This document shows positions 3,982-17,005 of a DNA stretch of 38,714 bases, piece after piece. Positions within the stretch are counted from its first letter, which is position 1. Each line of letters starts with the position of its first letter. This stretch comes from Vicinamibacteria bacterium. GTDB lineage: Bacteria > Acidobacteriota > Vicinamibacteria > Fen-336. The stretch covers positions 1 to 38,714 of the forward strand of contig JAFGSN010000198.1 of the NCBI GenBank assembly GCA_016934575.1, written 5' to 3'. The position numbers were made by a program, and so were the translations under genes. A model generated the notes under the pieces. That model was not told the origin of the DNA. It ran no database searches and saw only the letters and a program-made list of their open reading frames with translations.

Positions 3982-4011
3982 TTGACACGCGGCAAGACGC
4001 AATGCTACAGT
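3982..4011 (+). promoter_or_regulatory. sigma70-type promoter of the kinase operon
   Basis: TTGACA (-35, 3982-3987), an 18-nt spacer, and an extended -10 TGCTACAGT (TACAGT 4006-4011). Transcription would start near 4018. This rules out the GTG codons at 4010 and 4016 as starts of the kinase gene and favours ATG 4073. Confidence 0.6.
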
Positions 4012-4072
4012 GCCCGTGAAGGAGATCTCTCCGCGCGAGGCGGGTTATCAAGAAGATTCTTCTTGCTCTCCG

Positions 4073-6688
4073 ATGGACGACAGCACTCAATACGTCGAAC
4101 AGATGCCTGAGCGTATCGGGCGCTATGAGATCAAGTCGTGCCTTGGGTTCGGCGCCATGGGGGCGGTCTATCGGGCTTTTGATCCGCTGATCAAACGCAC
4201 GCTTGCCATTAAGACGATTCGATTGGACATCCCGCGTCAGAGTCCGCAGTACAAATCGTTCATCGAGCGTTTCTATCACGAGGCACGCATCTCCGGAACG
4301 CTTTCCCATCCGAACATCGTCACGCTTTACGACATCGGCGAGGAATCCGGCGTGCCTTTCTTGGCGATGGAGTTCGCCGACGGTGAGACGATTTCAGCCA
4401 TGATCGAGCATGGCGTTCGTTTCACGCCTGAACGTGTCGCCGTGCTCGTCAGCCAGATCGCGTCCGCTCTTGATTACGCTCACGGCAAAGGCGTGATCCA
4501 TCGTGACATCAAGCCGTCGAATCTCATTCTCTGCGAAGAAGACCGCGTCAAGGTCACTGACTTCGGAATCGCCAAGCTGGCGGACGCCGAGCTGACGCAG
4601 TCCGGCATGCTGCTCGGGACGCCGGCTTACATGTCGCCCGAGCAGGCCATGGGAGACAAGCTCGACGGCCGCAGCGATATCTTTTCTCTCGGGATCTGCG
4701 CGTTCGAGATGCTTTCGGGCGAACAGCCCTTTCCCGGCAACAATGTGACGGCGATTCTCTACAAGGTCGTTAATGTTGAACCCGTCGAGCCCGCGAATCT
4801 CGAAGTCCTGGGATTGCTGCCCGACAAATGGCGTGAGGTCTTCAATCGGGCGTTGGCCAAGAAACCCGACGATCGCTATCAGACGGCGTCCGCTTTCGTG
4901 CAGGGCCTCGAATACTGCCTCGGCTCCTGGTTCGGCCTGTCAATGGGCGAGGAAACCGCGCAGCTTGCCGCTCCCGCCGAGGCCATCGAAAGCACTGAGG
5001 CCATGCCTTCGCTTCCCGACGACGGGGAAACGGGCGCGGCCATGGAAGCGCTGTCGGCCGTCGAGAATGACGCTTCATCGTCGATCACATCCGCTCCTGC
5101 CCCGTCGATTTTTCCGGACGATGTCTCTCGGGATAAACGAATCGACAAGGAGAGGGTCGTCGCGGCGCCGCCCTCGCCTCCATCGCCCGACTCGGATGCG
5201 ACTTCCATACCAGAGGCGCCAGAGTCGCAGATCGAAAACGAACCGATCGTCGTGGCGCCTCCATCGCCCGATCCGGATGCGACTCCCATACCGACTCTGC
5301 CAGAGTCGCAGATCGAAAACGAACCGATCGTCGCGGCGCCTCCATCGCCCGATCCGGATGCGACTCCCATACCGACGCTGCCACAACTTCAATTGGAATC
5401 CGACGAGGAGCCCACGCTGCTCATGCCAAGCGCCTTGGCGGATGAGACCGAAACCATTGCCCTGAGCGCGGTCTCCGCCAAGGCGGTCAACCCGGGAGAT
5501 TCGGCGCAATCGACTCTGCCCGAAAACCGGATGGCAACGACGCCACCGCCGTTGGTTGAGCCGCGGAAAACGACGGCGCGGCCTCCCGCTCAATCGCAAC
5601 CGTCCACTTCGTCGGCCATGGAACCGAAGCGCAGGATTACTCAATCCATGCCTTCATCGGGCCGGTCTCCGCGCGCGACAGCTTCAATCAGGAAACCTGT
5701 CGCCCGCTCGCGCCCGCTCGCGCCCGCTCCCGCGCATGTCTTCCCGAAGCGCCGATCATCCATTCGCTTGGGCAAATCTTGGATCGTCGCCTCCGCCACG
5801 GGAGCGACGCTCCTGCTCGTGGCCGGCGGTTTTCTGGGGCTTCGGTTTCTCAGTGCGAATCGCGAGCGGCCACGCTCGCTCCCCGATCCGGCGACGGTCG
5901 TGACGCCGATGTCGACTCCGCCCACTCCTTCACGTGGAACTCTACGCGTCCTGAGCACGCCGTTGGGCGCCGACGTGTACATAAATGGAAAGCCGCGCGG
6001 TACGACGCCGCTCGTGCTCACGCTTCCGCTGGGGCTCTATGACGTTCGCATCTCGATGTCCAACCTCGCGCCGCAGCCGCACAAGGTCGAGCTTTCGTCC
6101 GAACAGCCCATGGTCGAATTGCATGCAAGATTCAGGATTCGTTCGTCGGGTCTTGCCACGATCGTCACCGATCCGACGGGCGCATCAATCACGCTCGACG
6201 GCCGTACCATCGGCAAAACTCCGATCCATGCCGTGAAGCTCGACGCTGGAGAACGAGTCGTCGAGATCCGGCTGGAGGGTTACCAGGTCCTGACTCGGCG
6301 GATCAACGTTGTCGCAGACCAGCGACAGGAGTTTTCGTACGTCCTCGATCCCATCGTAATCGCAACCCCAAGCCGACTTGTCGTGGACACCGAGCGTGTT
6401 TATTTTCCCCAGGACGTTGACATTCGTCCCAAGAAACTTTCGGGGCCGCATCCGGACTATCCCGACGCCCGCAAGCTCAAGGCGGGCGAGGCCGTGTCCG
6501 TTACAGTGTCTTTCGTGATCGACGCTGACGGCTCCGTCTCTGGAATCGAGGTCTCCGAATCAGGCGGCGCCGCTCTCGACAAAGCCGCCGTGAACGCCCT
6601 GAAGGAATGGCGGTTCGAGCCCGGCGTCAAGCGTGAAACGCGAGTCAGGGTCCGCGAAAGCCGGCGCTTCACCTTCAAGTCCGGATGA
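4073..6688 (+). CDS. transmembrane Ser/Thr protein kinase with PEGA and TonB C-terminal domains
   Basis: An 871-residue Hanks-type kinase with an unusual envelope half. Cytoplasmic kinase domain about residues 19-285: glycine loop GFGAMG (25-30), Lys47, HRDIKPSN (143-150), DFG (163-165) and SPE in place of APE (188-190), so it should be active. Residues 290-565 are an acidic, Pro-rich linker with 27-residue tandem repeats. One membrane helix follows (about 569-592), then two PEGA domains (about 621-757) and a TonB C-terminal-like domain (about 776-871). Start: ATG 4073, because a strong promoter covers the upstream GTG codons; no good ribosome site is visible. It overlaps the FHA gene by ATGA. 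Inference: it senses or touches an envelope component and phosphorylates a partner such as the adjacent FHA protein. Confidence 0.9.
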   Translation: MDDSTQYVEQMPERIGRYEIKSCLGFGAMGAVYRAFDPLIKRTLAIKTIRLDIPRQSPQYKSFIERFYHEARISGTLSHPNIVTLYDIGEESGVPFLAMEFADGETISAMIEHGVRFTPERVAVLVSQIASALDYAHGKGVIHRDIKPSNLILCEEDRVKVTDFGIAKLADAELTQSGMLLGTPAYMSPEQAMGDKLDGRSDIFSLGICAFEMLSGEQPFPGNNVTAILYKVVNVEPVEPANLEVLGLLPDKWREVFNRALAKKPDDRYQTASAFVQGLEYCLGSWFGLSMGEETAQLAAPAEAIESTEAMPSLPDDGETGAAMEALSAVENDASSSITSAPAPSIFPDDVSRDKRIDKERVVAAPPSPPSPDSDATSIPEAPESQIENEPIVVAPPSPDPDATPIPTLPESQIENEPIVAAPPSPDPDATPIPTLPQLQLESDEEPTLLMPSALADETETIALSAVSAKAVNPGDSAQSTLPENRMATTPPPLVEPRKTTARPPAQSQPSTSSAMEPKRRITQSMPSSGRSPRATASIRKPVARSRPLAPAPAHVFPKRRSSIRLGKSWIVASATGATLLLVAGGFLGLRFLSANRERPRSLPDPATVVTPMSTPPTPSRGTLRVLSTPLGADVYINGKPRGTTPLVLTLPLGLYDVRISMSNLAPQPHKVELSSEQPMVELHARFRIRSSGLATIVTDPTGASITLDGRTIGKTPIHAVKLDAGERVVEIRLEGYQVLTRRINVVADQRQEFSYVLDPIVIATPSRLVVDTERVYFPQDVDIRPKKLSGPHPDYPDARKLKAGEAVSVTVSFVIDADGSVSGIEVSESGGAALDKAAVNALKEWRFEPGVKRETRVRVRESRRFTFKSG
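5158..5390 (+). repeat. 81-bp tandem repeat in the kinase linker
   Basis: Two nearly identical 81-bp units (5221-5301 and 5302-5382) encode the 27-residue unit ESQIENEPIV...PPSPDPDATPIP. A degenerate partial copy precedes them (about 5158-5220). The period is a multiple of three, so copy number can vary without breaking the frame. The repeats lengthen the disordered linker between kinase domain and membrane helix. Confidence 0.85.
5701..5730 (+). repeat. three tandem decamers in the kinase gene
   Basis: CGCCCGCTCG occurs three times head to tail (last base of the third copy is C). The 10-nt period is not a multiple of three, so gain or loss of one unit would shift the frame just before the membrane helix. 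Confidence 0.8.
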
Positions 6689-10682: not shown

Positions 10683-10754
10683 GAAGCTCAATCGCAGGCC
10701 CTCGAATGAAGCGCTCTCGGAGCTCGTTTGGCCGTTGACGGCGGCCGCGTTAAC

Positions 10755-12467
10755 ATGACCGACATGACAATCGCCTTGATTCTGAGCTTGCTTTCCGTCG
10801 CGACGCAGCCGCGCGCCTTTCCCGACGAGCGTTCGCTGCTCGACAGCCGTCTCGAGACGTTGCGTCGAATCCTGCCCGACGGCGCCACGGTCGAAGCGGA
10901 CGCCGCCCTGATTTCCACGTTCGCGTCGGAATCGCGTCTCTCCGTCATGGAGCTGAAGCCGGGGGCAATCCAGGAGGAAGGATCGCGCGGTATCGTGCCG
11001 ATCGAGCTGGTCGCGGCCGGAAGATTTCTGGACATCGAAGGCTTTTTCCGTCAAGTCGCCCTCTCCCATCGGCTTGTGGACGTCGCGCACCTGTCCCTCA
11101 GCGCAACGACCGGCGACGTTCTACGAGTGAAGGCGTCCCTGCGACTGCCGTTCCGGGTCGAGAAAGCGCCGCTGCCTCCGCCGCCCGACGGCTGGCGTAA
11201 CACGCTGCGCGGCGTGCCGCGTACGGTCGCCGACGCCTTTCTCCGCAATCAGGCCCTGGCTGTGTCCAAGTCCGAAGCCATCGTCATGTGGAGGCGTAGC
11301 CGAAGAAATCCGCGCCTCTTCCTGAGCGAGCTTGCGGCTGCGGTCCGCGATCGTCCCATCATCATACGTTTCGCGACGCTCAACGACGATTTTCGCCTGA
11401 GCGGCATGGCGGTCGGCGAAGCCACGATGCATTCGCTTGAAAGCCGCCTCGAGCGAGGCTTCTGTCGTCTCTCGGATTTCCTCGTGATGCGCCAGAGCGC
11501 ATGCCATCACTTCGAAGCCCGCGGCACGTGCCCGGTGGTCGGCGTTGACGCCGAGCTTCCTTTGCCCAACGAGGATCCGTTTTTGCAGGACGACTCTCCA
11601 TGTCAAATCGACCGCGATCCGGCGACCACGGTATTCGTCAAGGATCCCAATCCCAAGCGTCGTGGAAACGGCCCGCTCAGCCTGAGGCTGCGCGACGTCG
11701 ACGTCGCGGATGTCTTCATGATATTGCATCAGCTCACGCGCCAGGGTTTCTTGATCGACGAAGAAGTCAAGGGTCGAGTGAACGGCGATCTCAGCCGCGT
11801 CACGCTTGAGGAAGCTCTTGCCGTCATTCAGAAAGCCGACTTCATGATCTCGCCGCCCGCCCCGATTCGTCGCGTCTCGCTCTCCACCGGGGACCGATCG
11901 AGGCGAACCGCCGGAAAAACCGAGAAGACCGCCGAACGAACCGAGAAGGACTCCGGCCCGACCGTGAGCCTGCTTTTCAAGCGCGCCGATGTCCGGGACG
12001 TGTTGGCGACCCTGGCCGAGGTTGATGCCGGTTACGCCGCGCTTGGCCCTCAGGGATTTCTCGGCCGTCTCAGCCTGTGGTCGAGCGAGATCTCTCTGGT
12101 AAAAATGTGGCCGGCCCTGCTGGAGGCGTCCCGACTCACGGAGAAGATCGAGGACGGCCGCCGCCTTCTCGAGCGCAACCCAGGCTCCAACGAGGCGCTT
12201 CTGCCTGTCGCCAGCTCGCCGCCGCCTGCGCGACGCCTCGTTCTCGAGCCGCAGGAGATGTCGGTGCGGGAGATCGAACCCGTGGCGCTCGCGACCGCCG
12301 GCTCTGGTTGGCGCGTCTACTGCTATGGTCCAACGGGCACGCTCAAGTCGTATCGCGCCGGAGATCGTCTTGCCGACGGCAGCGTACGTTCCGTGGAATC
12401 CACGGACATCGTTCTCGTCACGGACGAGGGACCGCTCCGTATCGTTCTGCCGCCGTCACGACGCTGA
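10755..12467 (+). CDS. fused type IV pilus-like assembly protein (PilO-, PilN-, STN- and PilP-like regions)
   Basis: A 570-residue protein that reads like several pilus alignment proteins joined together. Residues 1-21 look like a signal peptide or short anchor. Residues about 28-133 resemble PilO (VPIELVAAGRFLDIEGFFRQVA..., then a short basic beta stretch). About 185-262 resemble the PilN periplasmic domain. About 305-365 and 400-461 look like secretin short N-terminal (STN) domains: LRLRDVDVADVFMILHQL and LLFKRADVRDVLATLAEV. About 500-566 resembles the PilP HR domain (GPTGTLKSYRAGDRLADGSV). There is no secretin barrel. No other pil genes are nearby. Start: ATG 10755; GTG 10728 would only add non-hydrophobic residues. 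Domain assignments are by pattern only; the STN and PilP calls are the firmest. It converges on the OmpA-like gene, 22 nt apart. Confidence 0.65.
   Translation: MTDMTIALILSLLSVATQPRAFPDERSLLDSRLETLRRILPDGATVEADAALISTFASESRLSVMELKPGAIQEEGSRGIVPIELVAAGRFLDIEGFFRQVALSHRLVDVAHLSLSATTGDVLRVKASLRLPFRVEKAPLPPPPDGWRNTLRGVPRTVADAFLRNQALAVSKSEAIVMWRRSRRNPRLFLSELAAAVRDRPIIIRFATLNDDFRLSGMAVGEATMHSLESRLERGFCRLSDFLVMRQSACHHFEARGTCPVVGVDAELPLPNEDPFLQDDSPCQIDRDPATTVFVKDPNPKRRGNGPLSLRLRDVDVADVFMILHQLTRQGFLIDEEVKGRVNGDLSRVTLEEALAVIQKADFMISPPAPIRRVSLSTGDRSRRTAGKTEKTAERTEKDSGPTVSLLFKRADVRDVLATLAEVDAGYAALGPQGFLGRLSLWSSEISLVKMWPALLEASRLTEKIEDGRRLLERNPGSNEALLPVASSPPPARRLVLEPQEMSVREIEPVALATAGSGWRVYCYGPTGTLKSYRAGDRLADGSVRSVESTDIVLVTDEGPLRIVLPPSRR

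Positions 12468-13306: not shown

Positions 13307-17005
<3,699 letters not shown>

Follow-up and report, generated by a model that had tools for sequence, protein, structure and literature searches.

The protein described here is most closely related to the alignment proteins of type IVa pili: each of its domains is homologous to one of PilN, PilO, PilP or the N0 domain of the secretin PilQ, and the equivalent of PilO Arg 169 is retained. In Pseudomonas aeruginosa PilO, the substitutions R169D and I170A are reported to lower both piliation and twitching (PMC5805733). A second point of comparison is GspB/OutB, an accessory scaffold of the type II secretion system (T2SS), whose HR (PilP-like) domain is reported to bind the secretin N0 domain and to aid secretin assembly (PMC9239104). 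The likeness lies in the presence of such a PilP/GspC-like domain in an accessory protein beside the core machine; GspB consists of one transmembrane segment and the HR domain, and PilO, PilN and N0 parts are not described for it there (PMC9239104). More distant resemblances extend to the periplasmic domains of GspL and GspM (PulL, XcpY, EpsL, EpsM, PulM), which share the ferredoxin-like fold of both N-terminal domains of the present protein, and to Amuc_1100 of Akkermansia muciniphila, from a different phylum, whose core fold resembles that of PilO (Z 8.1, rmsd 3.9 over 106 residues). GspL and GspM are separate, anchored T2SS proteins, unlike the fusion, and to our knowledge Amuc_1100 has no N0 or PilP part.

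The gene in question lies on a 38,714-nucleotide stretch of the genome of a Vicinamibacteria bacterium (the window), at positions 10755..12467 of the forward strand, and encodes a product of 570 residues. In comparison with the type IVa alignment proteins, this product unites four kinds of part in a single chain, in the order O-N-N0-N0-P, with the N0 part doubled and with two invariant cysteines; it lacks both a secretin barrel and a clear transmembrane anchor of the PilN/PilO type, and its gene stands outside the pil operon. All of the parts come from known families, but their combination in one, apparently exported, chain is new, and a search of the open-licence literature turned up no account of such a fusion.

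Domain architecture of the fusion protein

The reading frame is uninterrupted over positions 10755-12464, after which it ends in a stop codon, with alternative starts at 10728 (TTG) and 10764 (ATG). A preliminary description had recognised in the chain segments resembling PilO, PilN, two secretin-type STN domains and PilP, without a secretin barrel, and this reading is borne out by family profiles, column shuffles and fold alignments, with profile matches for every one of the regions. Sub-alignments of 18 homologues were compared by hhalign with PilN, PilO, PilP and PilQ profiles built from canonical loci within the phylum. All five regions matched their own counterparts, the 15 off-target pairs did not exceed 2.4%, and the observed score was reached in none of 60 column shuffles for any region. 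AlphaFold prediction on 14 sequences (mean pLDDT 80.2, pTM 0.61; the alignments used, A2 and A4, exclude the homologue from genome G004 and four far homologues) yields a pair of ferredoxin-like domains, a pair of N0-type domains and, at the C terminus, a beta domain, and structure alignment of the model returns the folds in the order derived from the profiles, although VIA-align Z values below 8 may reflect merely a common arrangement of folds. As to the barrel, a genome-wide search with PF00263 returns contigs C224 and C160 only, the fusion gene not being among the matches; the PilQ of contig C16, with its barrel truncated at the end of the contig, is likewise not recovered by this search. 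The dN/dS ratios of 0.09-0.28 in six homologue pairs (alignment A3 excludes L015, the DNA of which is 97.5% identical to that of the retained L014, and this pair was measured as L055/L056) indicate that purifying selection acts on the gene. The architecture is near certain, and the function is what we infer.

The PilO-like ferredoxin-fold domain (residues 20-138; 10812..11168, forward strand, as are all features of the gene) is the sole domain of the protein above its Pfam cut-off (PF04350, 32.6 bits versus a cut-off of 22, residues 24-124), and on single-sequence profiles no other part would be accepted. It matches PilO at 98.6% in hhalign, finds the PilO proteins of M. xanthus and P. aeruginosa in a PDB profile search, and aligns to structure 2rjz with a Z of 9.9 and an rmsd of 1.6 over 92 residues. 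Within it, Arg 106 (11070..11072) is invariant in all 18 homologues and corresponds in the profile alignment to Arg 169 of P. aeruginosa PilO (the numbering is deduced from the motif, whose Asp175-Phe176 pair likewise aligns); this conservation suggests that the surface contacting PilN and PilP is still in use.

The PilN-like ferredoxin-fold domain, with a long helix before it (residues 150-262; 11202..11540), sits inside the chain, after the PilO-like part, and is the weakest of the five regions in hhalign (60.9% against PilN, E 8e-5). A sequence-profile search of the PDB with this part gives no Pil match, and PilN is not among the matches listed for the full-length model in the structure alignment; the assignment therefore draws on profile-profile and fold evidence. 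Folded by itself (mean pLDDT 69), the domain aligns to PilO, XcpY, PulL and EpsL with Z values of 8.7-9.7 and to Thermus thermophilus PilN with a Z of 6.6 (rmsd 4.2 over 79); its best matches are PilO and GspL/GspM, and some ferredoxin-like folds with no relation to these (permutants of ribosomal protein S6 and designed proteins) reach close Z values.

The two STN, or secretin N0-like, domains occupy residues 300-378 (11652..11888) and 400-476 (11952..12182) and match PilQ N0 in hhalign at 96.4% and 96.8%, respectively. For the first, a full-length profile finds the N0 domains of GspD and PilQ in the PDB (E 1e-4 to 0.06), and the structural agreement is weak (Z 4.8 to InvG N0), with other middling scores that include a putative anti-sigma factor (Z 5.2). 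The second aligns to XcpQ N0 with a Z of 8.7 (rmsd 2.0, 75 residues) and to Neisseria meningitidis PilQ N0 with a Z of 8.5. Pfam detects both families below threshold in the window protein (GspD N0, 17 bits; STN, 11.7 bits), and the NCBIfam PilQ model TIGR02515 matches residues 307-361 at 9.2e-6, far below its whole-protein cut-off; in distant homologues the Pfam cut-offs are exceeded (STN 30.5/28.4 in L081; GspD_N0 28/27 in L084). The C-terminal beta domain, resembling PilP and the GspC homology region (residues 492-568; 12228..12458), matches PilP at 98.2% in hhalign and aligns to the GspC HR (3oss) with a Z of 5.9 and to PilP with 5.6 and 5.4. Sequence profiles of this part retrieve no PilP from the PDB, and the assignment is again one of profile-profile and fold evidence.

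STN domains occur in signalling proteins too, and the fusion could consist of domains put to a new use that has nothing to do with pili or secretins. The divergence of the sequence, the middling structure scores of the first N0-like domain with its anti-sigma factor match, and the want of pil linkage described below would all agree with such a history. The chain nevertheless combines four domain types that all derive from pilus proteins, and the PilO motif has been kept, so that this reading is considered very unlikely.

N terminus and conserved cysteines

Residues 1-18 (10755..10808) form a hydrophobic N-terminal segment that is probably a signal peptide. A Kyte-Doolittle scan finds a hydrophobic stretch of about 12 residues there, after which the PilO-like core begins almost at once, and gives no second strong candidate membrane segment elsewhere in the chain; for this reason the protein looks exported rather than anchored in the manner of PilN and PilO, and both export and cleavage are read from the sequence. 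The N termini of far homologues resemble classical signal peptides, with small residues where cleavage would be likely; some homologue starts were trimmed by hand, and the statements for L010, L016 and L081 apply to partial N termini. In family f1 the positive charges that are usual in signal peptides are missing from the N termini, which could instead be short anchors. A lipoprotein N terminus of the PilP kind is not present, as there is no cysteine within the first 200 residues.

Cys 250 (11502..11504) and Cys 283 (11601..11603) are conserved in every one of the 18 homologues, 11 of which have no other cysteine in the chain, and the two are presumed to form a disulfide. The far homologues L065, L081, L082 and L084 have another pair of cysteines, located in the second N0-like domain and after it.

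Distribution and origin

Full-length homologues at E<=1e-12 are found in 15 of 193 genomes of the class, the source genome included, and all lie within one order. Intact, collinear homologues occur in 13 of the 14 genomes of the source family (absent from G007, which is 63% complete), and the sister family has the fusion in two genomes out of three (absent from G014, 93% complete). Among 396 genomes sampled across the phylum, with at most three candidates per genome scored, matches spanning more than one domain type occur only in four source-family genomes and in G399, of another class; the other listed matches cover the PilO part alone or the N0 part alone, and the loci retrieved for them contain separate canonical PilO and PilQ genes. 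In the family of G399, 3 of 18 genomes (G399, G543 and G550) carry between them four homologues of the complete architecture, which share 22-26% identity with the window protein. Two diverged copies (L081 and L084) are present in G550. A fifth match in this family, in G545, was rejected as an ordinary PilQ on the evidence of its barrel-bearing sequence. An alignment-based scan of genome contigs returned 13 loci, all in Acidobacteria or Vicinamibacteria metagenome-assembled genomes. Homologues outside the Acidobacteriota were not reached by the genome-contig searches, and a first scan with the single protein returned none; one scan of viral contigs gave no match to the fusion, and no PHROGs family was found at E<=0.1.

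In a tree of PilO sequences, the PilO-like parts of the 18 homologues make up one side of a supported branch (97/88) that separates them from 21 canonical PilO sequences (canonical fragments of 110 residues or less excluded), a topology consistent with a single origin of the fusion in the sampled Acidobacteriota. The source genome is a draft of 247 contigs, in which misassembly, or loss of a stop codon joining neighbouring pil genes, might produce a chain of this kind. Such an artefact is refuted by the homologues, which show the same architecture in 18 aligned sequences from separate assemblies; the action of purifying selection also speaks against it, and its probability is negligible. Moreover, the domain order O-N-N0-N0-P differs from the operon gene order N-O-P-Q, and a simple read-through fusion of the operon therefore does not explain the gene.

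Genomic context and coexistence with canonical pilus genes

No match to PilN, PilO, PilP or PilQ profiles at E<=1e-4 is found beside the fusion in any of 19 contexts, whereas the control contig (L089) gives all four, and within the window the fusion is the only open reading frame that matches these profiles. For PilN, PilO, PilP and PilQ, the remark in the preliminary description that no other pil gene lies nearby holds for the window and for all 19 contexts. Two other multidomain genes of the window, as annotated by Pfam, join, each in a single chain, a Ser/Thr kinase domain to PEGA repeats and a TonB C-terminal domain (4010-6688, forward strand) and 2-oxoglutarate dehydrogenase E1 to an E2-type acyltransferase catalytic domain (13307-17005, reverse strand).

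Elsewhere in the source genome (G000), a canonical contig carries the end of pilN followed by pilO, pilP and most of pilQ, and there are 13 matches to the secretion/pilus ATPase family (PilB/PilT-type). A search of the genome for the partners PilQ, PilM and PilT accordingly finds canonical pilQ, PilB/PilT-type ATPases and a PilM-like protein, and the genome is not one without pilus genes. Two further secretin loci are present. On contig C160 (L091, 8000-26646) lies a T2SS-like cluster with a GspE/PilB-type ATPase, PilC-, PilM-, PilN- and PilO-like proteins, pseudopilins and a TPR-secretin (the PilN-, PilC- and pseudopilin labels being assigned by eye). On contig C224 (L090, 9337-11825), a small exported-looking protein, which may be LolA-like, is encoded immediately upstream of a TPR-secretin.

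With both of these loci in the source genome, and with at least three places matching the secretin family in 13 of 17 genomes of the order, the fusion could be a core part of a different machine, such as the T2SS-like system of C160 or the other TPR-secretin of C224. The profiles of the fusion, however, match the type IV pilus PilO, PilP and PilQ of the phylum, the C160 system has PilN- and PilO-like proteins of its own, and the fusion contexts contain neither a PilN/O/P/Q-like neighbour nor a blastp match to any of four C160 proteins. Membership of a different machine is on balance quite unlikely.

A canonical PilO distinct from the fusion is present in all source-family genomes but G009 (78% complete), or 13 of 14, and 12 of these 13 also carry the fusion. 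In the G399 family a PilO match above the cut-off is found in 17 of 18 genomes, and two of the three distant carriers, G399 and G543, have canonical PilM-N-O. The remaining carrier, G550 (87% complete), gives no match to PilO and no more than a weak one to PilM. A canonical PilO of ordinary strength was not found in G550, G015 or G016, and PilO is missing or weak also in G009 and G014; for G016, whose pil contig ends just upstream of or at PilQ, and for G014, whose contig ends inside PilQ, absence of PilO cannot be claimed. The G014 genome has a PilQ-type secretin and no fusion, which indicates that a secretin can be present without it.

These observations bear on the preliminary proposal of a condensed alignment protein. 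The domain content that it implied stands; a replacement of the separate parts does not agree with the canonical pilN-pilO-pilP-pilQ contig, the ATPases and the second system with PilM/N/O-like proteins in the same genome. That the fusion acts in place of separate PilN, PilO and PilP in a reduced pilus finds its one favourable case in G550, with two copies and no PilO match; given the incomplete state of that genome, and the canonical proteins in the source family and in G399 and G543, replacement is extremely improbable. An accessory or regulatory use fits better.

Proposed function

The reading that we favour, to which we give about an even chance, is that the fusion is a periplasmic protein, exported and stabilised by a disulfide, that serves as an accessory scaffold or assembly factor beside a type IV pilus (or T2SS-like) machine. 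It draws on the coexistence of canonical PilN-O-P-Q in the same genome, which points to an accessory role, and on the analogy with GspB/OutB. Also in its favour are the counterpart-specific domain matches and agreeing folds, the invariant Arg 169 equivalent, the conservation of the protein under purifying selection, the export-like segment and the cysteine pair. Export, cleavage, the disulfide, every protein contact and the machine served (type IV pilus or T2SS-like) are here what we infer; as the fusion is without genetic linkage to PilN/O/P/Q genes in the 19 contexts, its partnership with their products is read from domain ancestry alone.

The fusion may have been assembled from duplicated pieces of the alignment complex, namely a PilO core, a PilN core, two PilQ-type N0 domains and the C-terminal domain of PilP. 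In this model, pairing would take place between the two ferredoxin-fold domains of the fusion, or between these and PilN/PilO. Secretin N0 domains would be bound by the PilP-type domain, and the N0 domains of the fusion would in turn dock onto PilP-type domains, either those of the machine or, in a closed form, the one in the same chain. Working beside the canonical parts and not in their place, the protein would in this way serve as a bridge or a gate where the inner-membrane PilN-O-P ring meets the secretin. A more specific version, in which a single-chain, diffusible and disulfide-locked copy of the alignment module, of one origin and encoded apart from the pilus operons, toggles or templates the connection between inner membrane and secretin in the type IV pilus, is offered only tentatively, as an idea that is somewhat more apt to fail than to hold.

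The same domain content would suit a decoy or regulator, that is, a soluble mimic which competes for the PilN/PilO and PilP-PilQ contacts and thereby limits or times pilus/secretin assembly. Such a chain would offer the partner surfaces of each of the four alignment proteins, it has neither a barrel nor a clear anchor, and a stand-alone gene outside the pil operons would probably be expressed independently of them. Retention in 13 of 14 genomes of the family, the fixed architecture and the paired cysteines suit a structural role as well, and we consider a decoy or regulator unlikely.

Significance

Annotation pipelines are likely to label the fusion ‘PilO' or ‘hypothetical', because Pfam detects a single domain above cut-off. 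The contacts among PilN, PilO, PilP and the secretin N0 ring are hard to see, and the PilN-PilO-PilP complex is reported to have resisted crystallisation (PMC5805733). A natural single chain that carries all of these parts could be amenable to direct structure determination, which might reveal their pairing. We know of no regulator or assembly-chaperone class of this kind in any other pilus system, and if the fusion is indeed a regulator or an assembly factor, it would represent an unrecognised layer of pilus/secretin control in a large, poorly cultured soil phylum.
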